A stretch of DNA of 64,000 nucleotides from Obelidium mucronatum. Lineage: Eukaryota; Chytridiomycota; Chytridiomycetes; Chytridiales; Chytriomycetaceae. Shown piece by piece: positions 1 through 28,678 of the stretch (position 1 is the stretch's first letter; each line of letters opens with the position of its first letter). The notes beneath the pieces are model-generated. The model saw nothing but the letters and a program-made list of their open reading frames with translations, ran no database searches and was not told the origin of the DNA. Location of the stretch: contig JAIVFH010000038.1 in assembly GCA_025765595.1 (NCBI GenBank), positions 1 through 64,000 on the forward strand, written 5' to 3'. The translations under genes and the position numbers were made by a program.

Positions 1-1190
1 ATTGGTGTTGTATAGTGTGTAATAGGTGTGTATCAGCGCGCGTAGCGCATTTGCGTATATTCCGGCATACCCTCCCCCGCGCGTTGAGTCCCCCATTACG
101 GGCGACCTGTCGCGCAGTTGCGTTTTACCGCAGGAGTGGCTGTGGGGACTGCACGTCATGTGCCATATCCAGGGTCGCCATATAGGCCTACTCGACTCCA
201 TGATTGTGTCCCCACTACTCGACCGGGGGGACATCGGTCTTTCGGTGCTTCTTTGCATATATTGTGTTTGTGTGTATATCAGCGCATGTAGCGCATTCTC
301 GTGTATTCCGGAGTACCATCCCCCACGCGTTGAGTCCCCCATTACGGGCGACCTGTCGCGCAGTTGCGTTTTACCGCAGGAGTGGTGGTGGGGACTGCGT
401 ATCACTCGCCATGTCCAGAGTCGCCTTAAAGGCCTACTCGACTCCACCCAGTTGCCCACCACTTTCGGGTGGGGCTTTTCGCAGTGTCCTCCGTCCAGGT
501 CATTCCTGCGGGTCTTCCAGGTGCTGTAGCTGCTGTTGCGGCTGTGGCACCCCACCACTCTTTCCTTATCTCCCTCGCCCGCCCCTCCACTCCTGTCCAC
601 GCCATCGCGTTCGGCTCCAGCAGTTGCCCCACTTGTAGGGGTGCTCTGTGCCAGCCGTGTATGTCGCCGTCGATGGTGCATGGCCACTTTAAGGGTGGGT
701 TTGCGTCCCCCAAGTGGCCCACCGCTTCGTGGTATCCAGATGTGCCCAGCGGCGACCCTTTTGCAGCTGCTAGCGTCGCTGTTGCAGGATCGCCGCATGC
801 GCCGCATGCGCCCCTCCGGCCCCAAGCCCCGCCCCACCGCTTCCCTTCCCTCGCCTGTTCCCGCGCGTCCGTTTGCTCGGCCATCCTCTCCACGTCCGGC
901 GCTTGCGTCCGATGCGTTGGGGTGCCCTCTTGTCCGGCCCCCTTGCATCGGTCGCACGTGTTGAGACTGTCGATGCTTGGCCGCTTTTGCATCGCGCCCT
1001 CTGGAAGGAGCGACGCTTCGCGGTCTTTGGACCCGGTTCCCGGCAACGACTCCGTTGCTGCTGCTGGCGTCGCTGCTGCTGGATCGCTGCTTCCCGCCCC
1101 CCTCCGGCCCTAAATCCCTCCTCACCTCCACGCCTCCTGCCGCAGTCCTGCCCGCACTGCCACCTTGAGCCACTGCGACAGTTGCGCGGA
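1..1190 (-). mobile_element. 5' region of a LINE, reverse orientation, running off the window's left edge
   Basis: This GC-rich block is the reverse complement of 14599-15788, where the same sequence leads directly into the LINE ORFs at 15917-22391. It should therefore be the 5' region of a second LINE copy, transcribed leftward, with its ORFs outside the window. The 5' boundary is judged from the change in base composition near 1190-1320 and is only approximate. Long open frames exist on both strands, which is expected of GC-rich sequence and is not proof of coding. Confidence 0.7.
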
Positions 1191-1318
1191 GGTTCCCGTT
1201 GAACGTTCGCTCCTGTTGCATTCAGGTGGTGGTGGTGTTAGAACTTGTGTTGGCAGGTGGCTTACCACTTCGCGTTTTCAACAAAGTTTTTTTTGCGTGG
1301 GTGGGAAGCCATAGACAT

Positions 1319-2378
1319 ATGCAAAGTACATACACATCCAGCAATATTATGTTTGAGGGTGAAGCACATTACCGTCATGTGAAATCACTCCTACAGTCTC
1401 CAACTCAAAACATCAATGGAGGACAGCTGGAACAGCTTGGTCATGTATGTTGAGGGTTGGTGATTTGCTTTCCATTAAATCAATTTTATCAGTGTATACG
1501 AGTGTCATTCCTTCAAGCCGGCTTTGTTGTTGCAATTGATGAGGCATTGTCTCCCGCATTCCTCCTCAACTGTTTGGAGGCACCTCTGACTATGTACACC
1601 AAGCAGATGGTTTTAGATTTGAAACCTGGGTTTTTAGGTACATTTCTATTGTCAAGAGACAATCCAGAAGAACTGGAGTTGATGAACCTCTACATGAGTC
1701 AAGCAGGAATAGCAAACACAGTGGTGAGAGGTTTTCGAGTATTAATCAAGGAAATTAACCTGAAAATCTCTCAAGGGTTGTATTGATTACACTTGCAAAG
1801 AAAACTGGGAGCAGTTTTTGATTCATACTGAGTTGGTGAAAAAGAGAGAGCCCTATATGGCCTCTGTTTGGATTGGAGTTCGGAGTGTTATTGGCAGCAA
1901 CACTAGCAGCCTTTTGGAGGCAGTTCACTTGCTTTCCATAAGGGACACAACTCCTGCAGAGTTTATAGCCCTGTTTGATCACTCCAAGAAGCCTATGGTT
2001 GAAGATACGGACAGATTAGAATCTTTGAATTTGGTTTTTGAGATTTTGGGAACATGGGATTCAAAGCAGTTACAGCAGAGCATGATGACTCTCATGGGCC
2101 ACAATATCTTACCTGCTGCACAGAAAATCAAGCTGTTGTTTAAAGGTAATAATATTGGAAACATTGAACAGGTCGGGTTGGAAACAGCGGATGAAGTAGC
2201 TGCAAGAACAACAGATTCCACTGGATATCATATTAGACAATTTGAGGATGTTGTTCCCATCAATGTGGCAGCATGCAATGCGTTTTTGACTTTGCCAGCT
2301 TGCACAAATAAGGAGTTGATGGAATCTGCAATGATAGGTGCTTTTTGCGGGGATGCCGGAATGTTGAACAAAGCATAA
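1319..2378 (+). CDS. HECT-like ubiquitin-ligase C-terminal domain protein (transposon-associated?)
   Basis: Three exons can be joined without a frame break: to 1444, 1493-1723 and 1776-2378. The introns have 48 and 52 nt with GT..AG ends. The ATG at 1319 is the first in a frame open from 1199, and the true start may lie in an upstream exon removed or masked by the LINE. The last 45 residues fit a HECT C-lobe: a Cys lies seven residues before the Pro of an 'LTLP' motif, the spacing seen for the catalytic Cys in 'TCFNxLxLP'. The earlier 'FEGE' and 'LLEAV' segments are compatible with a degenerate N-lobe. HECT domains occur in mobile-element genes as well as host E3 ligases, and the TE context favours the former. 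An AATAAA follows at about 2409. The fold call is moderate. Confidence 0.5.
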
Positions 2379-3267
2379 AGAACAGTGGTTCCTTTTCCTT
2401 TTGTTATTCAATAAAATTAAATTGAATATAGTTCTTACTGATTCAAAATCATCACTTTGGTGCTTCCACTAATCATAGCTTTGGTGCGTACCCTAAAGGG
2501 GCGATCATAGCACTTGCCGGAATTCAGCCGGTATGCTGCCAGCCGGCAACCTCCTCGACCAATGAGATTAGTGGCACGAGACCGGCATTGTGACCTCTTC
2601 TGACCGTTTTGTGATGCCGTCTCGTGCCAAGCCGGCAACTGGTAACAAGTGGTAAGTTTGGTAAAAACCAAGCATCAAAAGCAAAAATCATAAAGATTCC
2701 CTAGCTTGCATCATCAGACTCACTGCATTTCCATCTCACTCTCGCTGCATTACCCTCGGTGGATTTCATGCAATCAAGGCATCAGCTGCTGTTCCAAACA
2801 GGTTTAAGTGCCGGCATAACCTGGTCCTGCCTCAGTGAGTTAATATTGAAATGAAACAGCGACGCAACCAGGGTCAACCACCTGCTGCTGTCAGACCATG
2901 GCTGTCGCGTACGCCTGTACACGCACAGCACACACCAAATGTCGCCTCAAGCGCCGGCAGTACAGCAGCAGCAACAACGGCAGCCCTCCTTTCGGAATGC
3001 CGGCACTCCTACAGCGGCTGTCAACTACAGTTAGTAACCTTTTCCCTTTATCTTTATTTGGATGATACTGACTCTTCTGTAATTAGATTCTGTGACATTC
3101 CCCAAACCCATTTCTTGCGACATCAGTTTCTTCCACCTCTTCAGGAATCCTTACAAGGATCCCCACAGCCACTGCAACACCCCTGCCCAATACTGGTCCA
3201 AGTGCCAAAATAGCTTCTGCCCACCCAAAGAATTGTGCCGGCCCCCCACAAGGTGCAACACTCCCCA

Positions 3268-3753
3268 CCCAAGCATCCTCGATTATCTATCGAGGAAAAA
3301 ACTATGGCCGACTCTGAAAGCGAAAGAATTTGTCCACCAAACCAATTGTCCATCTTGGAACCCTTGTTAAATTCGAAGTTTGACTATCGCTGCAAGGAAA
3401 AAACGATTCAAAGTCAGGAATTACAACATGGCGCTTCAGTTGTGTGAGCCAGTCGACAGCAGCGCCTTGTAAAGCTCCTATTTGGGTCACCAAAGGGATG
3501 CAAGGCTGGTGTGTTGTATGATTTTATTTTCTATTTTGATGACCATCTTTCAGGGATGTTGAGCGGAACAATCCGCACAAACAACCCTTTGGAAGGCTTC
3601 AATCGTGTCTTGAACAAAACCTACCCAAAGTCTCACCCAACGCTACCATATTTATGGATGGAATCAAAGATATTTTGGATCACTATGTGGGCCGCATTTG
3701 TGATATTGGTGAAGGAGTCGGAGTCGCTCCTAGAAGGGAGCAACATGATTATG
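3268..3753 (+). pseudogene. MULE transposase fragment: FLYWCH-like finger joined to transposase C-terminus
   Basis: Around 3268-3500, in more than one frame, there is a FLYWCH-like pattern (IIYRG, then TTWRFSC, then CKAPIWVTK). It is followed directly at 3511-3753 by the C-terminal MULE signature 'TNNPLEGFNR' plus 'HPTLP'. The whole catalytic core between the two is missing. One-base shifts interrupt the frame near 3310 and 3650. The Copia insertion cuts the gene after codons reading EQHDY. The frame resumes after the Copia at 28679 and stops at 28725, which restores a continuous C-terminus. Confidence 0.6.
3749..3753. repeat. Copia target-site duplication, left copy (TTATG)
   Basis: TTATG lies immediately before the 5' LTR (TGTTGAAC...) and is repeated at 28674-28678 immediately after the 3' LTR. 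A 5-bp duplication is normal for Ty1/Copia integration. Removing one copy plus the element restores the MULE reading frame. Confidence 0.92.
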
Positions 3754-4005
3754 TGTTGAACGCAATCACATATGTGAAACACGATACATTTTATTTTCTG
3801 TTTCATTTACTCAACCACCCCCTTGTATTTTACTATATAATGTTTCATTCCCCCTTTGAGTTTTCTTCACTTCTTGCTCTGAATCTCTTGTGTTGTGCTC
3901 CCAATAACTCACACGCACAACGTTCCTTAGGTAAAATAAACAACACTTCTTGCTCTGAATCTCTTGTGTTGTGCTCCCAATAACTCACACGCACAACGTT
4001 CCTTA
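3754..4005 (+). repeat. Copia 5' LTR (252 bp)
   Basis: It begins TGTTGAACGC and ends CGTTCCTTA. It matches the 3' LTR at 28346-28673, except that it holds two copies of a 76-bp tandem unit where the 3' LTR holds three. Apart from that copy number I see no difference between the two LTRs, which suggests a young insertion. A TATA-like run (ACTATATAATG, near 3832) lies in the LTR. The sequence after 4005 (GATTAAGACG) does not start with the usual TGG of a tRNA primer site. Confidence 0.93.
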
Positions 4006-4006
4006 G

Positions 4007-5353
4007 ATTAAGACGTCTTCTGCCCACCAAACGAGCAACCTTAAAACAACCGAACCCGTGACGACGCTTACGCCTCTCACATGGGCAAACTCCCGCACCT
4101 TCTACGCCCAATGGAAATCCAATCTCATGGGGGAAGTCCATGCACACCAACCAAAAACAGGCTACTATGCCCTCTCCTACAAGTACAGAACAACCAAGTC
4201 CAGTCCAGGAAAACCTGTCAAGGATAATACGGCCACTGACATTACGGACCTCAAGGACCATTTAATCCTTGGATACGAGGACCCGACCATCGACATGATC
4301 AAGGCTGGATCTACCGCTACATTTGCAGAAAAACAGGCACATCGTACTGCCATCCTCCAGAACAAGTCCACCGACTCAGCCATCTTGAAAATCCTTCGAG
4401 GCTCCATCGATGACCAGCTTATCAAATCAATTGTCAATGCTGGAAATGCAAATGAGGCATGGGACCAACTCAACACCATGCTCAATCGTGAGATGAATGA
4501 CATTCACCCAGAACTACAAAAGAAATGGGATGACATCAAACAATACAACTGGGAGACTTACCAGGACTACTTGATCCGTGCCGAAGAACTAATCTTTGAA
4601 ATGCGCACCAACGGGATGACCATTGAAGAACCTGAAATTTACAACAAAATTTCGGCTCGTTTCACTATGGAAAACCAAGAGCACGTCAGCAAATTCAAAA
4701 CCAACGAAAACAACAACGCCACTCTCGGGGACATCAAGGGCTACTTCAAGGACCTGTACAACCTGTACCGCAAAGCAGCCACTGAAAGAAACGAGATCAC
4801 TACAGACGAAACCATCTACATCCTGATCACCAACTGGCCAAAGGAAGGCCGCCCAACCTCACCAAAGAAGAAGGAAAAGGCTCACCTCACTGAACAAAAA
4901 CCAATGGAAGGAAAGCCTGCAACCAAGCCAGCTGGCGGAACACGTGAAATGCACCCGTGCGACAAGTGCCATGCTATTGACTGCTACTTTCTCAAGCGAG
5001 GCGACAAGATCTGCAACCAATGCGAAACCTGTAAGCTCTATGGTCACATGCTCCCATGCAACGATTTCAAGAAGGCAAAGTCGCAAGGAAGATTGGATAA
5101 GTGGAATGAAAAGCAAAACAACAATAAAGCCGAACCATCTACCAATTATTACTCTCCTCTCCAAAACCTCTCTAATGATGAAAGCGACGATGAAGAACTA
5201 CCCGAAATCCTCAAAGTGACAATTCTAGCCAAAAATGAAAAACCAACAAAAACAACAACACCAACGGAAACCAACAAAAACAACAACACCAACGGAAACC
5301 AAAAAGACAGACACACCACGTCCACCACCACCGCCACTGCCATCACCAAATGA
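4007..5353 (+). CDS. gag: Copia Gag polyprotein
   Basis: The frame is open from 4007, just after the LTR, to the stop at 5353, about 448 codons. There is no in-frame ATG near its beginning: the first is at 4127, and a GTG lies at 4058. Initiation may therefore be non-AUG or may follow splicing. The middle has the helical capsid-like pattern of Copia Gag (for example 'WDQLNTML' and 'LIRAEELIFEM'). Towards the C-terminus is a Cys-rich nucleic-acid-binding region with repeated CxxC pairs (CDKC, CNQCETC), not a standard CCHC knuckle. The tail is Thr/Asn-rich and overlaps pol by 119 bp in the +1 frame, so pol may need frameshifting. Confidence 0.8.
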   Translation: MKTSSAHQTSNLKTTEPVTTLTPLTWANSRTFYAQWKSNLMGEVHAHQPKTGYYALSYKYRTTKSSPGKPVKDNTATDITDLKDHLILGYEDPTIDMIKAGSTATFAEKQAHRTAILQNKSTDSAILKILRGSIDDQLIKSIVNAGNANEAWDQLNTMLNREMNDIHPELQKKWDDIKQYNWETYQDYLIRAEELIFEMRTNGMTIEEPEIYNKISARFTMENQEHVSKFKTNENNNATLGDIKGYFKDLYNLYRKAATERNEITTDETIYILITNWPKEGRPTSPKKKEKAHLTEQKPMEGKPATKPAGGTREMHPCDKCHAIDCYFLKRGDKICNQCETCKLYGHMLPCNDFKKAKSQGRLDKWNEKQNNNKAEPSTNYYSPLQNLSNDESDDEELPEILKVTILAKNEKPTKTTTPTETNKNNNTNGNQKDRHTTSTTTATAITK

Positions 5354-8300
5354 AACAGCAGCACCAATCCAACAAAATACAACACCGCCACCACAACCGC
5401 AGCAAACATATGCGCAAGTCGCATCTCCACAAAAGAAACCAACACAACAACAGCAAGACACCCATCAGCAAAAATCAGGATCAACGTCAACAAACCTGAA
5501 AACCTTGAGTGGTGAAGATGGAAGTTGTGCTCCACCTTCGAGTTGCCTGAGTGAAACCCCCACAGCGGTGAAGCCAACGATGGCTGATTCACGCACAGAC
5601 CAAATGGGGGTGGATCTCGACAACTCACATTATGTGAGTTGTCCCAATATTAACATAGAACCTGCGTGCTCTCACGTCACTATTTCAGAATCCAACTGGG
5701 AAACTCATCAGAACACAAACCAACCAACAACCACCGAATCAGCAAACATAGCTCAGAACTCTATTCCACCGTCAGCGATCACTCTTCAAACCCATCACTT
5801 ACGCTTCAATCACCTCAATATGGAAGCAGTTAAAGCCACAGAAAACATTGTTCGAGGAATGAAAATCTCCAACGTCAAACTGGACGGCACGTGCCCATGC
5901 AGAAAACCACACTGCAGTAGTTGCATCCTCACAAAAATCAACCGCTACCCTTACAATGGTAACGATGGTCACCATAAATATGGAGTCGCGGAAGTATTCC
6001 AATGTGACGCAGTCTTTGCCAAAATTCCCGACGCATATGGAAACGTTGGATCACTGGGAATATCATGCCAAGCAACAACAATGCGATTTGTATTCAACTT
6101 TAAACACAAAGACCAACTCTATGAAGATGTTGAATACTTTATCAAATGGGTTGAACGTATCCATCCAGGAAAAACAAGAATCTGGAAATTGGACGCTGGA
6201 AGTGAAAACACGTCAGGAATGTTGGAAGACATCTTCAAAAGACTCGGAATCCAACAGAAAATCAGCGGACAAGGACAACATCAAAACGTCTACCAAGTCG
6301 AACGATATAACTCAACTTTATTTGACAGAATACGTGCAGTCCACAAGGAAACTGGAGTAAATGACAGATACTGGGGCTGGACAGCAAATAACAATGCGTA
6401 CACAGACAACCGCTCCAAAAACACAACATCTATTGACACAAACAAAACCGCATTCGAACAGTGGTATGGATACAAACCCAACGTGTCCAACCTCAGAACT
6501 CCATTCTGCATCACAGTATCACGAAAGTCAGACTTTGTAATTGAAAATCAAAACAAAGTTCAACCACGCGGGGAGGAAGGAAGATTTTTGGGATATGGAG
6601 ATTACGACGGACATCAAAAACAATACGCAGGATGGGCAATAGCAATTCGCGGAAAACCAATCAACGCGAAGCCAAAATACACTCGAAACATGTACGCATA
6701 TGAACACAAGTACAAATTCGAGGACGTACAGGACGGTGATGAAACACAACTTCAAGTAAAGGAATCAGTATGGAAACTCGAGAATGAACCAACAGATATC
6801 CCACCAACTACTCAACCAGCAATCACAAATCTACCAACAACACAACCTGCAAAACCGAAAAATCAAACACCACCAACACAACAGCCGACAGCACAACAAA
6901 AACCAGTACCAACACCAAAACCACCAACACAACACGATGAGGGACTGAATACCAAGCTACCTACAGAACTTGCTATCCAAAATCAACCCACACGACAAAC
7001 CAAACAACCGGAAAAACTCAAACAAGATGACATCAGAAAACCAACTACAACACCAAAACCACTACCAAAGCGAGGTGAACCAGGCTACATTCCTCCCACG
7101 TCTCGCCGCAACACAACAATCACACCATCTTCAACAAAATCAACCACAACACCAATAGCATCAAAACCCGCAACTACATCAAAATCCACACCAACAACAA
7201 AAACATCAAAACCACCAACAACAAAGACTGGATCGGCATCAACAGCAATTGAAACCCCGAGTGGTGTCGATGGAAGTTGTGCTCCATCTTCGAGTTGCCT
7301 GAGTGAAACCCCCACAGCGGTGAAGCCAACGATGGCTGATTCACGCACAGACCAAATGGGGGTGGATCTCGACAACTCACATAATGTGAGTTGTCCACAT
7401 CAAACTAAACTTGAACAATCGTACTCTCACTCAACCCAATCAGAAACATCAATGCTCATCGATGGTGGATGTACTCACCACATGCTACCGTCAGCCTCAA
7501 CAATGAACAACACACGAAAAGACACAGCACGAATCTACTCCACATCCCACAAAGGAGCATTTATTACAGGATCAGGGACATACGGAAACCAACAACTTGA
7601 AACAACTATTCCAATCAACTTAACAAACGTGGAAGAAGTACCTTCAGCATCAAAAGGACTAATATCTGAATCCCAACTTATGCGCGAAAATGGCCTGGAC
7701 ATTTGGAACGACTCCAAAACAATGAAGAAACATCTGGGAATTTTTGCAAGGGACAATGAAGGAAACCCGATCGGATTTGAAAAAATCTACGCATCAATTT
7801 TGGAACAAAACGGAACATGGACGGTACCAGTTCGAACGGCCACAACAAATACTGCAACCTCAACTAACATCAAAAATGAAAAATCCTCAAATGGTGTCGA
7901 TGGCAGTTGTGCTCCATCTTCGAGTTGCCTGAGTGAAATCCCCACAGCGGTGAAGCCAACGATGGCTGATTCACGCACAGACCAAATGGGGGTGGATCTC
8001 GACAACTCACATAATGTGAGTTGTATTATCGATTTATTCACTGCACTAGCTTGCTCTCATGAACTTCTTCAGGAAGAAAGTGACCTCGCATTTGCCATTG
8101 ACGATGAACTCAAATTCCTATGCATGCTAGCCCAGAACGATACTGCCTTGGCTACACAATACACAACAGCAAATACCGCACTTACCACTTTCGATGGACC
8201 ACGGAACATCAAAGAAGCAATGAATAGTCCAGACTGGCACTTATGGGAAGCGGCGATTGCAAAAGAACTCAAGGCACACCAAATCAAGTATAAAAGCTTC

Positions 8301-9153: not shown

Positions 9154-9643
9154 TGTTAGAACCAGATAGTCAATAAAAGACTTAAGGGTTCTTGAAGGCA
9201 CGAGGGCTTAGGGGGCACGAGGGCTTGTCTAATAACGGCTTGAGGTCACGAGAGACGGGATCGAAGAGTTACAAAACTGAAGACTAACACAGAATGTATT
9301 GAAACTGAACTAAAACTCAGAGCAGAAAGCTTGCTATTTATGCAAGTTCTGGAATTTCAAATAACAAAAGTTCAAAACTGAAAACAAACTGAAAATCAAA
9401 CAGAAATTGTGATAGCAAGAGTGATAGCACAATAATATGTGAAATCAAGAATGATATCACAAAATGAAACTGAAAACTTAGTAAAGTGACAAATCAAAGA
9501 TGACAAATACAAAAATAGAAACTTAAAGTAAAATGTTACTAGCGGGAATCGAACCCGGGTTTCCACCGTGATACTCGCGCGTAATGACCACTAAGCTACG
9601 GAACTATAGAGAAATATCCCTATAAGACGGGTGATTCCTAACA
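9154..9643 (-). repeat. Gypsy 3' LTR (490 bp)
   Basis: Read on the minus strand it starts TGTTAGGAAT and ends TTCTAACA, with perfect 6-bp terminal inverted repeats TGTTAG/CTAACA. It matches 27015-27504 at a constant offset of 17861. On the minus strand a polypurine tract (AAGAAAAGAAGGGGATGA) directly precedes it and overlaps the last pol codons. This fixes the boundary. Confidence 0.88.
9538..9606 (-). other. tRNA-like sequence inside the Gypsy LTR
   Basis: The minus strand carries an A-box-like TAGCTTAGTGG, a perfect B box GGTTCGAATCC and a following TTTT run, in the spacing of a tRNA gene. The sequence around the anticodon loop (GTATCAC) resembles Asp/Glu-type tRNAs. The D-stem, anticodon stem and acceptor stem pair poorly, so it is a tRNA-derived relic or an internal Pol III promoter, not a working tRNA. 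The other LTR carries the same sequence at 27399-27467. Confidence 0.55.
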
Positions 9644-10222
9644 TCATCCCCTTCTTTTCTTGCGATTGCGAACACTTGCAGCAATCGCACCAGGACCAGG
9701 CTTATCGGGATATTTGGCATGGAATTCAGAAACCAACTCAGCAGAACCAGAAACATTGGCAGCAGGCTCCCAAGAGCGGTCAGAGTTAGAATAACCCATC
9801 CAGTGGACTAAATATTGAAGTTTGCTGTAGAAAACGCGAGAATCCAAGATTTCTTGAACTTCCCATTCTTCAGTGTTGTCCACGATAACTGGCGGAGGCG
9901 GAGGTTGGGTAAACGCGGCGACAATATTCTTAGTCTTGGGATGCAGCAAAGACGCGTGGAATACTGGATGAATACGCATGGTTGAAGGTAAGGCAAGCTC
10001 AAAGGCGACTGGGTTGATGACGCGCTTGACTTTAAAAGGACCAAGTTTCTTATCATCAATCTTTTGAGAAAAACGATTAGTCTTGATATTGCGGCAATCC
10101 AAAAAAACCAAGTCCCCGGGCTTAATTTCAGGAACCGGTAACCGAGATTTGTTGGCTTGTGTGGTGTAACCTTCCTGGGCAAACTTTAAGTTCGCACGAA
10201 GGTCTTCAAGAATAGTTTTCAT
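9644..10222 (-). CDS. pol: Gypsy Pol C-terminus: integrase tail plus chromodomain (separated exon-like fragment)
   Basis: This frame continues the Gypsy pol broken at 22568: the residues before the insertion (RLASMKT) and after it (ILEDLRANL) join at the duplicated 12 bp. It contains the GPY-type integrase C-terminal region (LGPFKVKRVINPVAFELALP, then HPVFHASLL). A chromodomain follows (EEWEVQEILDSR, YLVHWMGY, SWEPAANV), which classes the element as a chromovirus. The TGA stop touches the 3' LTR. Confidence 0.9.
   Translation of the reverse strand: MKTILEDLRANLKFAQEGYTTQANKSRLPVPEIKPGDLVFLDCRNIKTNRFSQKIDDKKLGPFKVKRVINPVAFELALPSTMRIHPVFHASLLHPKTKNIVAAFTQPPPPPVIVDNTEEWEVQEILDSRVFYSKLQYLVHWMGYSNSDRSWEPAANVSGSAELVSEFHAKYPDKPGPGAIAASVRNRKKRRG
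10211..10222. repeat. LINE target-site duplication, left copy (AATAGTTTTCAT)
   Basis: The same 12 bp recurs at 22556-22567. Both copies are the Gypsy codons for MKTI read on the minus strand. They bracket the 12.3-kb inserted segment exactly. Between this copy and the start of homology at 10225 there are two extra bases (GA). Confidence 0.92.
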
Positions 10223-10224
10223 GA

Positions 10225-10554
10225 TGTGGGGGTTTCACTCAGGCAACTCGAAGGTGGAGCACAACTTCCATCTTCACCACTCAAGGTTTTCAGGTTTGTT
10301 GACGTTGATCCTGATTTTTGCTGATGGGTGTCTTGCTGTTGTTGTGTTGGTTTCTTTTGTGGAGATGCGACTTGCGCATATGTTTGCTGCGGTTGTGGTG
10401 GCGGTGTTGTATTTTGTTGGATTGGTGCTGCTGTTTCATTTGGTGATGGCAGTGGCGGTGGTGGTGGACGTGGTGTGTCTGTCTTTTTGGTTTCCGTTGG
10501 TGTTGTTGTTTTTGTTGGTTTCCGTTGGTGTTGTTGTTTTTGTTGGTTTTTCAT
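10225..10554 (-). pseudogene. Truncated start of Copia Pol (inverted copy)
   Basis: It is identical to 5235-5564, covering the Pro/Gln-rich pol N-terminus and part of linker repeat 1. It then runs into the Gypsy sequence and stops at 10219-10221. It has no catalytic domain. Confidence 0.9.
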
Positions 10555-11782: not shown

Positions 11783-11783
11783 C

Positions 11784-12035: not shown

Positions 12036-13299
12036 CATAATCATGTTGCTCCCTTCTAGGAGCGACTCCGACTCCTTCACCAATATCACAAATGCGGCCC
12101 ACATAGTGATCCAAAATATCTTTGATTCCATCCATAAATATGGTAGCGTTGGGTGAGACTTTGGGTAGGTTTTGTTCAAGACACGATTGAAGCCTTCCAA
12201 AGGGTTGTTTGTGCGGATTGTTCCGCTCAACATCCCTGAAAGATGGTCATCAAAATAGAAAATAAAATCATACAACACACCAGCCTTGCATCCCTTTGGT
12301 GACCCAAATAGGAGCTTTACAAGGCGCTGCTGTCGACTGGCTCACACAACTGAAGCGCCATGTTGTAATTCCTGACTTTGAATCGTTTTTTCCTTGCAGC
12401 GATAGTCAAACTTCGAATTTAACAAGGGTTCCAAGATGGACAATTGGTTTGGTGGACAAATTCTTTCGCTTTCAGAGTCGGCCATAGTTTTTTCCTCGAT
12501 AGATAATCGAGGATGCTTGGGTGGGGAGTGTTGCACCTTGTGGGGGGCCGGCACAATTCTTTGGGTGGGCAGAAGCTATTTTGGCACTTGGACCAGTATT
12601 GGGCAGGGGTGTTGCAGTGGCTGTGGGGATCCTTGTAAGGATTCCTGAAGAGGTGGAAGAAACTGATGTCGCAAGAAATGGGTTTGGGGAATGTCACAGA
12701 ATCTAATTACAGAAGAGTCAGTATCATCCAAATAAAGATAAAGGGAAAAGGTTACTAACTGTAGTTGACAGCCGCTGTAGGAGTGCCGGCATTCCGAAAG
12801 GAGGGCTGCCGTTGTTGCTGCTGCTGTACTGCCGGCGCTTGAGGCGACATTTGGTGTGTGCTGTGCGTGTACAGGCGTACGCGACAGCCATGGTCTGACA
12901 GCAGCAGGTGGTTGACCCTGGTTGCGTCGCTGTTTCATTTCAATATTAACTCACTGAGGCAGGACCAGGTTATGCCGGCACTTAAACCTGTTTGGAACAG
13001 CAGCTGATGCCTTGATTGCATGAAATCCACCGAGGGTAATGCAGCGAGAGTGAGATGGAAATGCAGTGAGTCTGATGATGCAAGCTAGGGAATCTTTATG
13101 ATTTTTGCTTTTGATGCTTGGTTTTTACCAAACTTACCACTTGTTACCAGTTGCCGGCTTGGCACGAGACGGCATCACAAAACGGTCAGAAGAGGTCACA
13201 ATGCCGGTCTCGTGCCACTAATCTCATTGGTCGAGGAGGTTGCCGGCTGGCAGCATACCGGCTGAATTCCGGCAAGTGCTATGATCGCCCCTTTAGGGT
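12036..13299 (-). mobile_element. MULE-like fragment (inverted copy)
   Basis: It mirrors 2490-3753, with the candidate terminal inverted repeat at 13260-13299 and the FLYWCH/transposase C-terminal fragment at 12036-12521. It carries the same frameshifts as the left arm. Confidence 0.85.
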
Positions 13300-13410
13300 A
13301 CGCACCAAAGCTATGATTAGTGGAAGCACCAAAGTGATGATTTTGAATCAGTAAGAACTATATTCAATTTAATTTTATTGAATAACAAAAGGAAAAGGAA
13401 CCACTGTTCT

Positions 13411-14470
13411 TTATGCTTTGTTCAACATTCCGGCATCCCCGCAAAAAGCACCTATCATTGCAGATTCCATCAACTCCTTATTTGTGCAAGCTGGCAAAGT
13501 CAAAAACGCATTGCATGCTGCCACATTGATGGGAACAACATCCTCAAATTGTCTAATATGATATCCAGTGGAATCTGTTGTTCTTGCAGCTACTTCATCC
13601 GCTGTTTCCAACCCGACCTGTTCAATGTTTCCAATATTATTACCTTTAAACAACAGCTTGATTTTCTGTGCAGCAGGTAAGATATTGTGGCCCATGAGAG
13701 TCATCATGCTCTGCTGTAACTGCTTTGAATCCCATGTTCCCAAAATCTCAAAAACCAAATTCAAAGATTCTAATCTGTCCGTATCTTCAACCATAGGCTT
13801 CTTGGAGTGATCAAACAGGGCTATAAACTCTGCAGGAGTTGTGTCCCTTATGGAAAGCAAGTGAACTGCCTCCAAAAGGCTGCTAGTGTTGCTGCCAATA
13901 ACACTCCGAACTCCAATCCAAACAGAGGCCATATAGGGCTCTCTCTTTTTCACCAACTCAGTATGAATCAAAAACTGCTCCCAGTTTTCTTTGCAAGTGT
14001 AATCAATACAACCCTTGAGAGATTTTCAGGTTAATTTCCTTGATTAATACTCGAAAACCTCTCACCACTGTGTTTGCTATTCCTGCTTGACTCATGTAGA
14101 GGTTCATCAACTCCAGTTCTTCTGGATTGTCTCTTGACAATAGAAATGTACCTAAAAACCCAGGTTTCAAATCTAAAACCATCTGCTTGGTGTACATAGT
14201 CAGAGGTGCCTCCAAACAGTTGAGGAGGAATGCGGGAGACAATGCCTCATCAATTGCAACAACAAAGCCGGCTTGAAGGAATGACACTCGTATACACTGA
14301 TAAAATTGATTTAATGGAAAGCAAATCACCAACCCTCAACATACATGACCAAGCTGTTCCAGCTGTCCTCCATTGATGTTTTGAGTTGGAGACTGTAGGA
14401 GTGATTTCACATGACGGTAATGTGCTTCACCCTCAAACATAATATTGCTGGATGTGTATGTACTTTGCAT
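13411..14470 (-). CDS. HECT-like domain protein (inverted copy)
   Basis: It mirrors 1319-2378 with the same three exons (14345-14470, 14066-14296, 13411-14013) and both introns kept. The introns survive because this gene would have been antisense in the proposed LINE read-through RNA. The catalytic-type Cys is present here too. Confidence 0.5.
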
Positions 14471-14567
14471 ATGTCTATGGCTTCCCACCCACGCAAAAAA
14501 AACTTTGTTGAAAACGCGAAGTGGTAAGCCACCTGCCAACACAAGTTCTAACACCACCACCACCTGA

Positions 14568-15938
14568 ATGCAACAGGAGCGAACGTTCAACGGGAACCTC
14601 CGCGCAACTGTCGCAGTGGCTCAAGGTGGCAGTGCGGGCAGGACTGCGGCAGGAGGCGTGGAGGTGAGGAGGGATTTAGGGCCGGAGGGGGGCGGGAAGC
14701 AGCGATCCAGCAGCAGCGACGCCAGCAGCAGCAACGGAGTCGTTGCCGGGAACCGGGTCCAAAGACCGCGAAGCGTCGCTCCTTCCAGAGGGCGCGATGC
14801 AAAAGCGGCCAAGCATCGACAGTCTCAACACGTGCGACCGATGCAAGGGGGCCGGACAAGAGGGCACCCCAACGCATCGGACGCAAGCGCCGGACGTGGA
14901 GAGGATGGCCGAGCAAACGGACGCGCGGGAACAGGCGAGGGAAGGGAAGCGGTGGGGCGGGGCTTGGGGCCGGAGGGGCGCATGCGGCGCATGCGGCGAT
15001 CCTGCAACAGCGACGCTAGCAGCTGCAAAAGGGTCGCCGCTGGGCACATCTGGATACCACGAAGCGGTGGGCCACTTGGGGGACGCAAACCCACCCTTAA
15101 AGTGGCCATGCACCATCGACGGCGACATACACGGCTGGCACAGAGCACCCCTACAAGTGGGGCAACTGCTGGAGCCGAACGCGATGGCGTGGACAGGAGT
15201 GGAGGGGCGGGCGAGGGAGATAAGGAAAGAGTGGTGGGGTGCCACAGCCGCAACAGCAGCTACAGCACCTGGAAGACCCGCAGGAATGACCTGGACGGAG
15301 GACACTGCGAAAAGCCCCACCCGAAAGTGGTGGGCAACTGGGTGGAGTCGAGTAGGCCTTTAAGGCGACTCTGGACATGGCGAGTGATACGCAGTCCCCA
15401 CCACCACTCCTGCGGTAAAACGCAACTGCGCGACAGGTCGCCCGTAATGGGGGACTCAACGCGTGGGGGATGGTACTCCGGAATACACGAGAATGCGCTA
15501 CATGCGCTGATATACACACAAACACAATATATGCAAAGAAGCACCGAAAGACCGATGTCCCCCCGGTCGAGTAGTGGGGACACAATCATGGAGTCGAGTA
15601 GGCCTATATGGCGACCCTGGATATGGCACATGACGTGCAGTCCCCACAGCCACTCCTGCGGTAAAACGCAACTGCGCGACAGGTCGCCCGTAATGGGGGA
15701 CTCAACGCGCGGGGGAGGGTATGCCGGAATATACGCAAATGCGCTACGCGCGCTGATACACACATATACACACTATACAACACCAATGAACAAAGGCATC
15801 TGTTTACACAATACAACATGCACCACACATACATACAACACACTCGAAAAAGACAACAAAAAGGCACACAGAAATAAGGAAACAAAAACAAAAAGAAGGA
15901 AAGCAAATGCCCTGAAATGGGCCGAAACTGCAGAGTAA
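14568..15938 (+). CDS. Candidate LINE ORF1 (or repetitive 5' leader)
   Basis: This is a 456-codon open frame that starts at ATG 14568 and ends in TAATG at 15936-15940, so its stop overlaps an in-frame ATG of the next ORF. The product is basic and rich in Arg/Gly/Ser, with no recognisable RNA-binding domain or zinc knuckle. Much of it is internal DNA repeats: about 190 bp at 15341-15530 is repeated near 15586-15775, and a second pair begins near 14680 and 14960 (GGGCCGGAGGGG.., GCGACGCYAGCAGC). Such repeats resemble promoter monomers. Whether this is protein or leader is open. Confidence 0.4.
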   Translation: MQQERTFNGNLRATVAVAQGGSAGRTAAGGVEVRRDLGPEGGGKQRSSSSDASSSNGVVAGNRVQRPRSVAPSRGRDAKAAKHRQSQHVRPMQGGRTRGHPNASDASAGRGEDGRANGRAGTGEGREAVGRGLGPEGRMRRMRRSCNSDASSCKRVAAGHIWIPRSGGPLGGRKPTLKVAMHHRRRHTRLAQSTPTSGATAGAERDGVDRSGGAGEGDKERVVGCHSRNSSYSTWKTRRNDLDGGHCEKPHPKVVGNWVESSRPLRRLWTWRVIRSPHHHSCGKTQLRDRSPVMGDSTRGGWYSGIHENALHALIYTQTQYMQRSTERPMSPRSSSGDTIMESSRPIWRPWIWHMTCSPHSHSCGKTQLRDRSPVMGDSTRGGGYAGIYANALRALIHTYTHYTTPMNKGICLHNTTCTTHTYNTLEKDNKKAHRNKETKTKRRKANALKWAETAE

Positions 15939-18900
15939 TGACACCAACCAACTTTGAAAATGAGCCAAACCTGAACAAGAATAGAAAAGCCACAAGCGCA
16001 ATTAAATCTGCCATCCAGGAGATGTACAGATCAGGAGAGCTAACAGAGGAGACAGAAAGGAAAATCAACGCCCTCCAAGATAAAAAAGATGGGGAGTTCC
16101 CACAAGGAGGAGGCTCCAGCAAAGAGCAACAAGACATCCTACGGCAGAAGAGGCACATGTGGCTCTCTAGTAAACTGAACCAATACAAAAACCTGGAAAA
16201 CTACACCCAAACAAACAACAAAACACAAGAGCAAAACAAAGGAAAAAAAGAAACAACGCCAAACAAAAAGCCTGAAAAAAGACAAAAAGAAACAACCACA
16301 ACCCAAAATACCAAGAAGAACAAAACGGCAACACTACCAACAGGGCCACAAAAAAAGAGACCAATTGAAGAAGAAGAAGCAATGGAGGAAACCACAACAG
16401 AGGAGGGACACAATGAGGGAACAGCTGACAATGGCGAAACCCTTCCAGACCAAGAACAAACACCAGACTTTGCTAGAAGGGAAATCAGATCAAATCGAAA
16501 CAAAATGGAACTTAGCGTGACAACATACAACACAGCCTCACTCAAAGTCGAAGAAACACAACATATGCTGACCACATTTGGAATCATGATAGGATGCATC
16601 CAGGAAACTAAAGTGCCCAAAGAAGAGGGGGAAAGAAGATGGAGAGGAAGAACAAAAAACAACGAAAACGGAAAAACACCAGACACCGAGCACAACTACG
16701 ATACAGCGGAATTTGCAAGTGCAGAAGGGAAGTCAGGAGGAGTGGCTATCATAATCCGATCTGATATCGCAAAACACATTGGACAAAAAATCAGAAAGGG
16801 AAACTGGCTCATTGCTATAACCCTACATCTCAAAGGAGGGGAAATAAGAGTAGTGAACATGTACATCCCCCCAAATCTCAGCAAATCGAGTGAAAAATAC
16901 AAAGAAATCTCTGAAACAATAGAACAAATACAGAAAGAAGATGACAAAGCAGGAAGGGAGACAATATGGACGATGGATGCCAACAGCTACAAAAATGGAG
17001 AGGTGGATAGATTCCCGGCCACAAAGGAAAAAGACACAGGAATAATCCCCATCCTCGAAGAATGCGGGCTTACAGACATCTTTAGACACCATAACCCAGA
17101 GCTTAGAAAATTCTCCAGGAGTAAAAGGAACCCCAAAGGAAAAGTAATATACGGATCAAGAATCGACGCCATATTTGCAACTCCGACTATCGCAGGAATG
17201 ACCAAACACTGTGACATACTAACAGAAATGGAGGAGCTGAGAATCTCTGACCACGTCCCAGTAGTAGTCTCATTTGACCTAACGAAAACCCACAACAAAG
17301 GACCCAAGGCCCCCAAAAAATCAGGGCGAGTGGTGGACTGGGACAAAGTGACAGAAAAGGAGAAAAAGGAATTTGAGGTTGGATGTGCAAAAATATATGA
17401 AAAGAACAGAGCAGAGTTACAAGACCAATGCGCAGGATTCCAGGTAATTGCTGGCAACCCTGAAAGAATCCAACAACACACAGAACTCGCAAACTTGACA
17501 CTAAAGTGCACCCCGCCATCAGCAACCGAAAAACTGTGCGACCTAAAAGAAAGAGAAATAGTGAGAGGAATAGTGGGACAAAACGCAGAAAGAACACAAA
17601 AGGAAATTGAAAAACTGGCAATGGAAACATTACCCAGTAAAATCCTTGGGGGGGACCGGAGAACTCCAGGTGAAACAGAATCAGCCAAGTGGTATAACCT
17701 ATTCAAGACAATGGGAGGGGCAATTACCGAAGCCCACAGGGGACCAATAAACACAAACACCTGGGACGAAATCAAGAGAAGGGCAACAGAGATCAAACAC
17801 GACTGGGATACACCCGCACCAGAAACAGACCAAACAGACCCAAATAACACCATCAAATGGCTGAGGGGAGAGCGAAATAAAGTGGAAAGAAAAGCCATAT
17901 CGCTGAAAAAGGCCCAAACAGCCGACCAAATAAGAACAGCAATTACAAAGAGAAACGAGATGTTCCGCACCCAAAGAAAAAGAATGTTTGACAGAATCCT
18001 CGACAGAGGGAGAGGAAACTCAGACATCGATAAGGTTAGAACCAAAGACGGCACAGTATTCGAATCAGAAGAAGTCAAACTGGAAACAGACAAGGTCTTC
18101 AAGGAAGTCTTCAAACAACGAGAAACAAAAGATATAGACCCGGAATCACCATTTGCACAGGAATACACGCCCAAAGAGTCAATAGACCCAGCAATATATG
18201 AAGAGCTAGAAAAAGAAATAACAACAGACCAAATCATGGAAGCACTCAGACAAATGGGAAAAAACAAGGCACCAGGGCCATCAGGGACTACAAGGGAAAT
18301 GCTGCTGATGGGGGGAACTGAAGCATGCAAGTACTTCCGCACAGTCATCCAACTATGCAAAGACTACATGTTCACACCAGAAACTTGGACAAAGGGAAAT
18401 ATCCGACCAATCCCAAAAACAGAAGAGTGGGCTGGAGACCTCCTAAAAACAAGGCCAATTGCCCTGCTTGAAATACCGTACAAACTAATGGAAACTATCT
18501 GGTACAACCCGCTCAAGAAAATCCTAATGGAAAACAAACATGTACTAGCAGGCCGAAACTTCAGCGTCCTCCCAGGGGAGTCAACAGAAACCTCCCTACA
18601 AATGATTAATGCCATCATCGAATACTGTAAAGAAAGGAACATGACAGCATACCTCCTATTCAATGACATTGCAAAGGCCTTTGACAGCGTTGGCCCCACA
18701 GCAGTAATGAGAAGCCACAGGAGGCTAAAAATCCCATATAAATACTCAGCATGGAAATGGGACACACAACAACACATGACAGTTAAAGTACTAACCACAT
18801 TTGGACCAACAGAAGGCTTCAAATGCGGAACCATGATACAGCAGGGGAGTGTACTGGCCCCCCTAGAATGGAGAATCTTCTGGGACACACTGCTATGCAC

Positions 18901-20776
18901 GCTAGACAAAGAAACAGAAGGGATAACAATAAAAGCCCAACACACAACCCGCATAAACCTAGACGGCACTACAACCGGCCAGACCCTACAAGAACGGCTC
19001 ACGGGGGAAGCATTTGTGGACGACACAGGCGCCTTTGCTGGAAACTGGAAAGAGGCCGAAAAGCAGGCTGCACTAATATATGAATTCCAAGAACTGAACT
19101 CAATCAAATCCAACACAAAAAAGATGGCAATGATTGCGATAAACCCAGATGAGAGCCGCAAGTACCTCAAATGGCCAGACGGCAGCAAAATCACCATCAT
19201 CAACAACAATGACAGCGAGAGAGTCCTTGGAAACTGGTTCTCAGCAGACAACCAGCACAAAGAATCAAAGCAACTCATCACCCAAATTGTCACAAATATG
19301 TGCAACCTCCTTGCCAAGAAGGAGATAACAGAAATCACTGCCATCACCATAGTAAACACAGTACTCCTTGCCAAAGTACAATACATCTGGAAAACCATGA
19401 CAGTCAGCGAAGCCTGTGTGGACAAGTGGTATAAAAAGTGCCTCAAAATGGTAAAACAGAAGGCAAGGCTGGCCCAAAGCACGCCCACCTCACTCCTAGA
19501 AAACCCAACACTATATGGCCTGGAGAACTGGAACCGCCACTACACGGCAGACAAAGTAAACAACCTCCTTATCAGCCTCAACGAAAACACACTGCTGGGC
19601 AGAATAACTCGAATCAGGCTATTAAACCTGCAAGAAGACCTGGCACTACCCCACTGCCCCCTCCAGGAACCCTTCCAACCATCACTTAAAAGGGGAACAC
19701 ACAGCATGGGCCAACTCCTGGGCAGAATGGCAAAAGACCAACTGTCAATCAAACCCATTGAATACAAAAACGAAGATAATGGACAAACAGAAACCTTTGG
19801 AAAAATTGAAGGAGGAAACACAACAATCTGGGAAGCACTTGGGAACTGGGCTATATACGACAAATTCAGACCACACCTCAAAAAAGACAACATCATGTTT
19901 GTCGACCAAATAGCTTCCCGGGATGGCAGAAAACTCCTCAACAGAAAAGACCTGATCAGGAGATACAAAAAAGACAACAGATCATATGGGTGGTACGAAG
20001 AACTAAAAAGACACATGGAAACAAGACAGAGTGAAGAAAACCAAACACCCTTTGAAAGAGCGAAAGTAACCAACCCAAACCCATATGCAACCGAAACCTC
20101 CCAGCGACCAATTACAGACTTCTGGCGAAGACTAAATGAGAACGAAACAGAAGAAACAGAAGCAGAGGAACACAGGATGAGAAGGGAGGCTGAGGCGGAA
20201 ATGGAAACAGCAAACAGAATCCCCACAACTGAGCCTAAGAAGCTGGAAAAGACACCACTGGAAAAGGACAACGTTGAAAACATAAACAATGCAGGAACAT
20301 ACCTCCTGTGCTCCCAAAATCTGCTTAAAGCAATAGGAACATGTGTAGTGGAGGATAACCCAGACCCAAAGCCAGACACAATATACACAGACGGCTCTAG
20401 ACACACTAACAGCATGGGAACAGGGGGGATATGCACAGAAGGTACCAACAGAGGACGAGAATGGTGTGCTAAAGTAACCGGTTGGTCATCATCCAAACTA
20501 CCAGAAGCCATGGGGGCAATCACAGGGATGATAGGAGCAAAAAAGGGACTCACCATTATCAAAATTGACAACGCAGCAGTGATAAAAGATGGCAAGGACG
20601 TAGTAAAAAGCAACGGAGAGATCAGCACCAGAGACCTTATGGGAAGAGCATGCATGCTACAAGTGGCAATGATGGCCCAAATCGTAAAAGACTATAGTAA
20701 AGAAGGGAGGCTCTTCCAATTCACCAAGGTAGAAGGACACTCCAAAATCTCTGGAAAGGACAAAACAGGAAAATGA
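15917..20776 (+). CDS. LINE ORF2: endonuclease, reverse transcriptase, RNase H
   Basis: The product has 1619 residues. An APE-type endonuclease is seen at residues about 195-450 (VTTYNTASL, CIQETK, TMDANSY, GSRIDAIFAT, ISDHVPVVV). Reverse transcriptase follows at about 760-1180 (NIRPIPKT, RPIALLEIPYKLMETI, FNDIAKAFDSV, QQGSVLAPLEW, AFVDDTGAF with the FVDD catalytic pair). An RNase H starts near 1490 (IYTDGSRH) and runs to VEGHSKISG. The frame then shifts, and the last RNase H motif (ENDIADKNA) lies in the next frame. APE plus RT plus RNase H suits I/R1/Tad-type LINEs. Translation may start at the second ATG (15938), which overlaps the stop of the upstream ORF. Confidence 0.92.
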   Translation: MGRNCRVMTPTNFENEPNLNKNRKATSAIKSAIQEMYRSGELTEETERKINALQDKKDGEFPQGGGSSKEQQDILRQKRHMWLSSKLNQYKNLENYTQTNNKTQEQNKGKKETTPNKKPEKRQKETTTTQNTKKNKTATLPTGPQKKRPIEEEEAMEETTTEEGHNEGTADNGETLPDQEQTPDFARREIRSNRNKMELSVTTYNTASLKVEETQHMLTTFGIMIGCIQETKVPKEEGERRWRGRTKNNENGKTPDTEHNYDTAEFASAEGKSGGVAIIIRSDIAKHIGQKIRKGNWLIAITLHLKGGEIRVVNMYIPPNLSKSSEKYKEISETIEQIQKEDDKAGRETIWTMDANSYKNGEVDRFPATKEKDTGIIPILEECGLTDIFRHHNPELRKFSRSKRNPKGKVIYGSRIDAIFATPTIAGMTKHCDILTEMEELRISDHVPVVVSFDLTKTHNKGPKAPKKSGRVVDWDKVTEKEKKEFEVGCAKIYEKNRAELQDQCAGFQVIAGNPERIQQHTELANLTLKCTPPSATEKLCDLKEREIVRGIVGQNAERTQKEIEKLAMETLPSKILGGDRRTPGETESAKWYNLFKTMGGAITEAHRGPINTNTWDEIKRRATEIKHDWDTPAPETDQTDPNNTIKWLRGERNKVERKAISLKKAQTADQIRTAITKRNEMFRTQRKRMFDRILDRGRGNSDIDKVRTKDGTVFESEEVKLETDKVFKEVFKQRETKDIDPESPFAQEYTPKESIDPAIYEELEKEITTDQIMEALRQMGKNKAPGPSGTTREMLLMGGTEACKYFRTVIQLCKDYMFTPETWTKGNIRPIPKTEEWAGDLLKTRPIALLEIPYKLMETIWYNPLKKILMENKHVLAGRNFSVLPGESTETSLQMINAIIEYCKERNMTAYLLFNDIAKAFDSVGPTAVMRSHRRLKIPYKYSAWKWDTQQHMTVKVLTTFGPTEGFKCGTMIQQGSVLAPLEWRIFWDTLLCTLDKETEGITIKAQHTTRINLDGTTTGQTLQERLTGEAFVDDTGAFAGNWKEAEKQAALIYEFQELNSIKSNTKKMAMIAINPDESRKYLKWPDGSKITIINNNDSERVLGNWFSADNQHKESKQLITQIVTNMCNLLAKKEITEITAITIVNTVLLAKVQYIWKTMTVSEACVDKWYKKCLKMVKQKARLAQSTPTSLLENPTLYGLENWNRHYTADKVNNLLISLNENTLLGRITRIRLLNLQEDLALPHCPLQEPFQPSLKRGTHSMGQLLGRMAKDQLSIKPIEYKNEDNGQTETFGKIEGGNTTIWEALGNWAIYDKFRPHLKKDNIMFVDQIASRDGRKLLNRKDLIRRYKKDNRSYGWYEELKRHMETRQSEENQTPFERAKVTNPNPYATETSQRPITDFWRRLNENETEETEAEEHRMRREAEAEMETANRIPTTEPKKLEKTPLEKDNVENINNAGTYLLCSQNLLKAIGTCVVEDNPDPKPDTIYTDGSRHTNSMGTGGICTEGTNRGREWCAKVTGWSSSKLPEAMGAITGMIGAKKGLTIIKIDNAAVIKDGKDVVKSNGEISTRDLMGRACMLQVAMMAQIVKDYSKEGRLFQFTKVEGHSKISGKDKTGK

Positions 20777-22391
20777 CATAGCAGACAAGAACGCAAACTT
20801 GGGGAACTCCGCAGAGGTAATCAACCTTAAAACAGGAGCCCAATCTCTCATACGATTCATGACAAAAGCTGGAGACAGCCTCATTGAGGGGCAAGTATGG
20901 GAAAACCTCAAGACTATCAACAAAATACACTCATACCTGGGATGGCAAGAACAACACTCATTTAGACACATCAAAGGCTACCTCGACAACATCGACCTTG
21001 ACATGACAATAACAACAGTAACTTGTGGCCGCAAACCCACAACCCCCTATACATCCACAGGGGAATCCGCCGCAATCAGATACAATGTACAAGCACTACA
21101 CCACCTTAGACCAACACAGTCAGTAATGAAACAAAGGTACCCACACATATACCCAAACGGGAACTGCAGGTGCTGCGACAACCAAGAAGAGGAAACAAAC
21201 TCCCACATCATGAAATGCAAAGCATTTGAGGAAAAAAGGACAGAAATCCTAAACAACTTCATCAAGGAGGTTGCAAGTGGATGCGACAATGGAGGAGGCA
21301 ACGAAAAGAAAGAAGGATGGACAAAGGACCTCACAAAATGGGCCAGACCATGGCAACACCACCTCAAGGACACAAGACCCGAGGGAGAATACCAGGGGAA
21401 ATGGCAGAAAAAAGTAAACAACCTAAGAGCTGAAGCTATATTAGAAGGGGCGGTCCCAGAAGTACTCAAAGAAATTCTCACAACCGTATGCGGCCTAACT
21501 GCCCAAAAAACAAGAACAATCATCATCAATGCAATGAAAAACGTGACTAAAGCGGCCAGAGAAATGTGGAAAGAGCGATGCGACAAAACAGTCAAATGGG
21601 AACTAGAACAAACACCTGCAATAACTGCGACCACCAAGAAATCCGCAAAAACGGCAAACTGGAAAAGGAAGGAAGCAGAAGAGGAAGTATTAGAGGAGGA
21701 TGAAGAACCCACCGAAGAAACACAACACAACCCAGGACCGGAAGTAATCCCAGAGAAAAGCCCGACTAAACGGCAAAAAAGAATATCAGGAAAATGGTGC
21801 CTAGTCTGCAACCAAAACATGGACAGCAACCCAGACGAGTTTGGATTCCACACACACGATAACAAATATGAGAAAAGGGCAAGAGCCATTGAAATGTGGT
21901 TCAACCACAAAACCGGAAAACAAATCCTCAGACCTGGGATGATAGAAATCTCAAAAGCTGCGAGAGAGGCCTACGAGAGCAACTCACCACAAGAAACAGA
22001 ATGGATCGAAACTGAAGAACCAACAGAGAGCCCCAAAAGGAGCCCTGATAGCAGCAGCAAACCAAACCCAAAACCAAGGAAGAAACGCCTGAGAAAAGAC
22101 CGGAGGAGACATAGGCGCAACCAGTCTAGAAAACCAGCAGCAACGAAAACCCACCAAGCAACAGAAACAGCAAGGGCACCAAGCACGCTAGACGGAGGAA
22201 TGATGGAATGGACAACAAGCCAGGACGACAGCGACCCGGACGAATGGGAGGATCTCAGCCAGAGACCTCAGGACCAAGACAAGCAAGCAAGACACAAGAT
22301 GGAGGAAGGGAGGCTGGATGGGGGCACTCTTTTCCCCACAGGGGTTTTTAATGAGGCCCCCAAGGCTTCTACTGGTGGTAGCTCCTGGTGA
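20777..22391 (+). CDS. LINE ORF2 C-terminal part (other frame): RNase H end and zinc-binding tail
   Basis: This frame carries the missing RNase H motif (ENDIADKNA, about 20769-20795) and continues the ORF2 protein for some 530 residues. It holds a CCHC-like cluster (CRCCDNQEEETNSHIMKC), usual downstream of RT in such LINEs, and a later CLVC..H..H pattern (VCNQNMD, FHTHD). The break in frame near 20750 is a single-base shift next to short A runs. It may be a mutation, a sequencing error or, less likely, programmed frameshifting. Confidence 0.75.
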
Positions 22392-22555
22392 GCTGGGGGA
22401 TGGGAGGGGGGATTGGGAGTTGAGGAAGGAGTTGGAAAAACAAGTCTGCCGCCTGCACAAGGCTGGAGGGTTTGCTCCGTGGCGAGGTTGGAAACAGCAG
22501 CGACATACTTTATTTTAAACAATGGAGTGAGGAGAATAAACCACTTTAAAAAAAA
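22392..22555 (+). other. LINE 3' UTR and short poly(A)
   Basis: This region is non-coding and contains AATAAA about 15 bp before a run of about ten A. The run merges with the 12-bp target duplication. Confidence 0.8.
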
Positions 22556-22567
22556 AATAGTTTTCAT
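22556..22567. repeat. LINE target-site duplication, right copy
   Basis: AATAGTTTTCAT, identical to 10211-10222. Confidence 0.92.
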
Positions 22568-25704: not shown

Positions 25705-25719
25705 ACTGGGCGGGGAAGT

Positions 25720-28673: not shown

Positions 28674-28678
28674 TTATG

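Follow-up and report, generated by a model that had tools for sequence, protein, structure and literature searches.

An Apparent Case of Upstream-Flank Capture by a LINE in the Chytrid Obelidium mucronatum, Giving Rise to a Local Inverted Repeat

The first 64,000 bases of contig C38 of the chytrid Obelidium mucronatum (306,879 bp; hereafter, these 64,000 bases are called the window) hold a nest of transposable elements, within which a long interspersed element (LINE), inserted once by target-primed reverse transcription (TPRT), appears to have carried 4,271 bp of its own upstream flank along and to have landed 4.66 kb away in inverted orientation. Judged from the sequence, the flank may have travelled in a read-through RNA, which would make the event a 5′ transduction in outcome; we give this reading a probability of a little under one half (about 0.48). 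A single target-primed insertion that includes the upstream flank of a reverse-oriented LINE, with the left arm of the resulting repeat as the source, had been proposed in an initial annotation of the window, and is supported here by a target-site duplication (TSD), a poly(A) tail and an empty site. The assembly used for all genome comparisons comprises 48.3 Mb in 694 contigs, and window base 1 coincides with the first base of the contig.

The Inverted Repeat and the Borders of the Insertion

The two arms of the repeat are bases 1–5564 and the reverse complement of 15787–10225, which share 99.96% identity. The two mismatches are both found near the contig end (an additional A at left base 21; at base 25, G in place of T), and from base 26 to 5564 the arms show no difference over 5,539 bp. 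The initial annotation had recognized this repeat as real and starting from 1–5564, but its right limit is 15787 instead of 15788, and the two mismatches have to be added. The arms are not adjacent, with a spacing of 4.66 kb; the junction between LINE and flank is identical in both, and a 601-base test piece (3000–3600) matched the two arms and no other place in the genome.

The right arm is part of a 12,333-bp insert (10223–22555) within a Gypsy element, flanked by copies of the 12-mer AATAGTTTTCAT. This 12-mer has exactly two perfect copies in the window, the 5′ copy at 10211–10222 and the 3′ copy at 22556–22567. Between them follow, from the 5′ side, two extra bases, GA (10223–10224), the copied upstream flank of 4,271 bp (10225–14495, plus strand), which is identical to the reverse complement of 1294–5564, and a LINE copy of 8,060 bp (14496–22555, plus strand), which extends from the 5′ terminus of its family to the A-run. 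The copied flank consists of the 5′ part of a Copia element in antisense, part of a DNA transposon, and the remnant of a gene including both of its introns. Neither ribozymes nor known RNAs of other kinds were returned for the copied 5′ end by an Rfam search over 1–32000 at E ≤ 1. At its 3′ end the insert terminates in AATAAACCACTTT, followed by an A-run that abuts the TSD; the AATAAA signal at 22535 and the A-run together span 22535–22557 (plus strand), the final two A's being shared with the TSD. The same pattern, AATAAA(A)CC(A/G)C with A-runs, is seen in all 14 other LINE 3′ ends listed, two of which (L042 and L054) have one 3′ flank in common.

To reconstruct the empty site, the insert was removed and the Gypsy flanks were joined over one TSD copy. 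Among the best 40 of 44 candidate matches, which were scored, 30 cross the join, and in 20 of these the net length is unchanged; the other 10 comprise both halves of the window itself and eight pieces that end short of the join. A 27-mer consisting of the TSD and its right flank is found exactly at eight further places, all of them among the matches crossing the join. Both the perfect 12-bp duplications bounding 10223–22555 inside the Gypsy element and the AATAAA signal with A-run at the end of the insert are confirmed. Four other Gypsy loci show a one-base difference at the target site (AATTG for AATAG). We had considered this base as a private TSD variant and as such an added proof, and dropped it because the window form is the commoner one genome-wide, present at 9 of the 14 exact sites (window included).

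The LINE Copy and Its Family

The element is recognizable as a LINE by an open reading frame (ORF) with reverse transcriptase, by its poly(A), and by TSDs of varying length in the family. The reverse transcriptase is encoded by ORF2 (15917–20776, plus strand; RVT_1, E = 1.2e-14), for which a continuation in another frame was read by eye over 20799–22391. Relatives of the ORF2 protein (15917–20773) are distant: 10 proteins match at E ≤ 0.001, and the top match, from Geosiphon pyriformis, has 24% identity at 33% query coverage.

Alignment of the 5′ termini of 12 other copies, belonging to the family or to near relatives, showed that 11 have (A)nCTTTGTTGAAA, or a sequence close to it, at their start, and that one starts approximately 15 bases inward; the 5′ flanks of these copies all differ, except for L022 and L023 with a common flank. 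The window LINE has this family terminus at 14495/14496, with 4,271 bp and 2 nucleotides between the terminus and the 5′ TSD. A check for TSDs in eight other LINE copies, with 5′ ends located in three only, revealed TSDs in three of the eight (C30, 17 bp; C87, 16 bp; C19, 20 bp). In C30 and C87 the TSD is at most 2 bases from the family 5′ terminus, and in C19 it abuts a start farther inside the LINE. The two relatives in which a TSD accompanies the family terminus thus have their TSD at the edge of the LINE, whereas that of the window LINE lies 4.27 kb farther out.

The description of the insert as ending in a full LINE was not borne out. In the C30 and C131 copies, approximately 2.1 kb separate the 5′ repeats from ORF2 and hold open frames resembling ORF1, along with a motif like a zinc knuckle, recognized by eye; the window LINE has 0.2 kb in place of this stretch, and its long ORF stops early, at 20776, near the RNase H region (placed by eye). 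Given the absence of the ORF1 stretch and the early end of the ORF, the window LINE was therefore probably mobilized with the proteins of another copy. It diverges from its relatives at approximately 15783–15787, within a few bases of the equivalent of contig base 1; this coincidence may be an effect of chance or of assembly, because the region is AC-rich.

The Presumed Source and the Direction of Copying

The 5′ end of the presumed source LINE is located at the left edge of the window (1–1293, minus strand), and is the same as 14496–15787 except for bases 21 and 25. It includes the family 5′ terminus and two repeats spaced 247 bp apart; the left arm accordingly carries, besides the flank, 1,293 bp of the LINE 5′ end, and the LINE body would extend beyond the contig start. 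Another contig begins in a similar manner, within the reverse-oriented 5′ part of a LINE of the same family (L005, C149:1–2744), and given both contig starts, the LINE 5′ region may be hard to assemble.

This LINE splits a multi-copy gene, of which the 3′ part remains at 1294–2490 (plus strand; annotated protein P0032, with two introns removed, as read by eye against the DNA). Three paralogues (C140, C124, and C101; 93–99%) extend beyond the LINE junction, the extension in C124 being limited to 114 bp, and because they continue past the LINE start, the LINE is taken to interrupt this gene copy in reverse orientation. Parts of the gene upstream of the junction were found on these three paralogues only. 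The gene had initially been labeled HECT, for which we found no basis: neither Pfam (window piece and C140 paralogue) nor a PDB sequence search revealed a HECT domain. Pfam returned no family at all for the window piece at E ≤ 0.1, nor for a hand-joined version of 388 amino acids from C140 at E ≤ 1; the single PDB match of P0032, to a phosphatase (E = 2.1), is not convincing, and the one match of a protein search, the window's own annotated model, does not name the gene.

The nest on the left side is ordered, outermost first, as gene, DNA transposon, Copia, Gypsy, and LINE insert. The DNA transposon (2500–29142) lies in the 3′ flank of the gene, is split by the Copia element, and is bounded by a 9-bp target duplication, CCCTAAAGG, at 2491–2499 and 29143–29151; when the gene flanks are joined across it, they align through to the paralogue L015 with 95.4% identity and two small gaps. 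Its initial assignment as a Mutator-like element (MULE) is based on the 9-bp duplication; a Pfam search with a frame piece of 70 amino acids gave no match at E ≤ 1. The Copia element (3754–28673, plus strand), itself split by the Gypsy element, has long terminal repeats (LTRs) at approximately 3754–4005 and 28346–28673, which are identical at 253 of 253 positions over 3754–4006, and is flanked by the target duplication TTATG at 3749–3753 and 28674–28678. The Gypsy element (9154–27706, minus strand), split by the LINE insert, is defined by a 692-bp terminal direct repeat of 99.86% identity and by Pfam pieces of reverse transcriptase, RNase H, integrase, and chromo-domain; a target duplication was looked for at its ends, and none was clear.

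From this arrangement we read the left arm as the source and the right arm as the copy, because the continuous nest is present on the left only, with its outer duplications closing at 29143 and 28674, and because the Copia sequence passes the end of the copied flank (5564/5565) on the left, but is cut in mid-Copia on the right. The Copia reading frame continues through 5564, as does a Copia copy on C15 (93%), and the right-arm Copia ends abruptly at 10225. The opposite direction, with the right arm as the original, was ruled out on the same evidence. That both arms belong to one stretch of DNA follows from the joins, which are supported by the duplications of the elements.

Several features of the nested elements may be noted in their own right. 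The Copia LTRs contain a 76-bp tandem unit (3868–4005 and 28460–28673), present twice on the left and three times on the right, the shared part being otherwise identical. A module of approximately 150 bp occurs three times in the Copia frame (5488–5642, 7190–7430, and 7842–8024; 84–91% alike), and within it lies a short, perfect hairpin, ACAACTCACAT...ATGTGAGTTGT, without an Rfam match; the copied flank terminates within the first of these modules. To the right of the right-hand Gypsy LTR, a 202-bp copy of the internal 3′ end (27505–27706, matching 9644–9845) looks as if it came from a recombined or dimeric element. Outside the transposon nest, an alpha-kinase gene is found at 44402–45919 (Pfam PF02816, E = 1.8e-36).

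How the Flank Was Carried

Under the RNA reading, a LINE in reverse orientation would have resided within the gene at the left edge, and minus-strand transcription would have started upstream of it, from Copia base 5564 or farther out. The RNA would have run leftward through the Copia element, the DNA transposon, and the gene remnant into the LINE, and would have received its poly(A) tail at the AATAAA of the LINE itself. Proteins of the LINE, perhaps those of another copy, would then have cut the nearby Gypsy element and reverse-transcribed the RNA at the target; the product would be the 12,333-bp insert with its 12-bp TSD, in which the 4,271-bp flank comes to lie 4.66 kb from its own start in inverted orientation. 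The retention of both introns had been explained by their antisense orientation in the RNA, but it does not decide the matter, as a DNA route would keep introns as well.

A number of points weigh against this course of events, foremost the length of the flank and the place of landing. The RNA, its start, and a source LINE body beyond the contig end all have to be supposed, together with a near landing by chance or by local bias. The naive chance of such a landing is approximately 4.5e-4, calculated from a span of 21.6 kb (4.66 kb to each side plus the size of the insert itself) in a genome of 48.3 Mb; it would be higher if insertion favored transposon-rich DNA. The LINE family is represented by 24 loci on 23 contigs, with no other close pair among the rows counted; this count is based on 30 of 45 rows, pieces within 12 kb of each other having complementary ranges and being counted as one copy, and the 15 rows outside it are short matches, including a pair on C21 by which the statement on close pairs is limited. 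These two C21 matches (C21:192277-192392 and C21:207345-207460) are 116-bp matches to the LINE 3′ region at 90%, approximately 15 kb apart and in opposite orientation, and it is possible that they represent a second inverted pair.

The assembly yielded no source LINE body, and no 3′ end or distal flank of it either. Among the best 40 of 76 candidates, which were scored, no other LINE 3′ end exceeds 97% identity to that of the window LINE, and the segment just beyond the arm, 15783–15990, matches at full length nowhere outside the window, six further matches being partial (82–87%). The absence of the ORF1 stretch from the product is a further difficulty: should the source LINE possess ORF1, the window LINE would be a composite, and a simple RNA model would fail. 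The initial annotation had predicted a source LINE 3′ end approximately 6.8 kb to the left of base 1, a distance resting on the assumption that source and product are alike; this prediction may be wrong, because the window LINE is without the ORF1 stretch and diverges close to the position that is equivalent to the contig start. Finally, an RNA of the flank would have bypassed AATAAA signals at 11994, 12261, and 12731; these weigh little, because the LINE body also has three such signals before the last one (17746, 17876, and 18928).

The strongest rival, which we regard as a serious if lesser possibility, is a capture of the flank coupled to DNA synthesis: nascent TPRT cDNA in the Gypsy element, with a 3′ end homologous to LINE 5′ sequence, would have invaded the source LINE approximately 9 kb away. 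Synthesis on the chromosomal template would then have continued beyond the LINE 5′ end and through the gene, the DNA transposon, and half of the Copia element, the product being joined to the target with 2 nucleotides of filler and no long RNA. Such a course would give the same insert and accounts better for donor and target being neighbors despite the otherwise scattered family loci counted, and for the exact copying of unspliced DNA; in addition, the divergence at approximately 15783–15787 together with the missing ORF1 could mark the switch from the cDNA of one LINE to the DNA of another. Related intermediates are known from human L1, where chimeric L1s arise by strand annealing of TPRT intermediates. 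However, the continuous copy from 10225 to 15787 fits an RNA equally well, no precedent for kilobases of flank by a DNA-coupled route was found in a limited literature search, and we know of no described capture of this kind. The specific claim that the flank was never RNA, with LINE cDNA invading the neighboring source LINE, copying at least 4.3 kb of chromosomal DNA, and being sealed with a normal TSD, is put forward tentatively, and we would sooner doubt it than accept it. As an established process, the RNA route is given a small lead, the DNA route being of almost equal weight.

Improbable by comparison is a template jump combined with an error at the contig end, in which the reverse transcriptase would have jumped from the 5′ end of the LINE RNA to a separate antisense RNA of the gene, the DNA transposon, and the Copia element, the LINE part of the left arm (1–1293) being a false extension from right-arm reads. 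This would agree with the left arm ending at the contig end, with the sole differences between the arms falling in its first 25 bases and the LINE 5′ parts being otherwise identical, and with the failure to find the source LINE body in the assembly. Yet it requires two separate events and an acceptor RNA ending exactly at the LINE junction, and the other half of an uninterrupted gene would be expected, whereas only the three other paralogues were found.

Very improbable, in our view, is a later DNA event, in which a LINE first inserted normally into the Gypsy element and the inverted LINE later served as donor for its extension, through gene conversion or break-induced replication: two inverted LINE 5′ ends would presumably be a suitable substrate, but the copied DNA would have had to rejoin precisely where the old 5′ TSD lay, gaining no more than 2 nucleotides. 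Least credible of all is an assembly artefact or fold-back chimera, suggested by a repeat that begins at contig base 1 and ruled out by us on the separation of the arms, on borders that coincide exactly with the TSD, the empty site, and the LINE A-run, and on outer nest duplications that close on the far side.

Relation to Known Transductions and Significance

5′ transductions of L1 and SVA arise through upstream starts (PMC12350158, PMC4859970, PMC12593883). Figures given for 1,019 human genomes list 466 of 5,311 L1 insertions as carrying a transduction, mostly at the 3′ end (82.2%; 350) (PMC12350158). The window insertion resembles human L1 5′ transduction in that the upstream flank of the source is enclosed by the TSD of the new insertion, with poly(A); it differs from it in concerning a fungal LINE with distant protein relatives and an unspliced flank of 4.27 kb, and in landing 4.66 kb away, inverted, within the very nest that was copied. 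SVA 5′ transductions likewise have their flank inside the TSD, the flank deriving from an upstream transcription start as described in PMC12593883, where a mean of 172 bp and a median of 124 bp are given for them, and a range of 9 bp to 4 kb for both kinds of transduction together. Against this median, the present flank is approximately 34 times as long.

Chimeric LINE insertions are a second class for comparison, and arise by template switching or strand annealing. As in these, sequence from another locus is joined to the element during TPRT, but in the present case LINE and flank were already joined in the presumed source. For SVA, a chimera by template switching or strand annealing is proposed for one case in PMC12593883. 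If strand invasion brought in kilobases of flank, this would be new. A limited search of the literature yielded no description of LINE transduction in chytrids and no paper on the transposons of this genome.

The borders given here to the base pair describe a LINE insertion in a chytrid with several kilobases of upstream flank, which gives an inverted repeat that is both local and perfect. Inverted repeats that are large and identical are fragile, and RNA silencing can draw on them, so that their origin matters. If the RNA route is true, a source LINE identical to 15788–22555 would be expected to the left of base 1, with poly(A) and a duplication ending in CCCACCCACGC. If instead the flank was never RNA, LINEs could build large local inverted repeats through TPRT coupled to DNA repair synthesis, and the term 5′ transduction would include a DNA-templated class.

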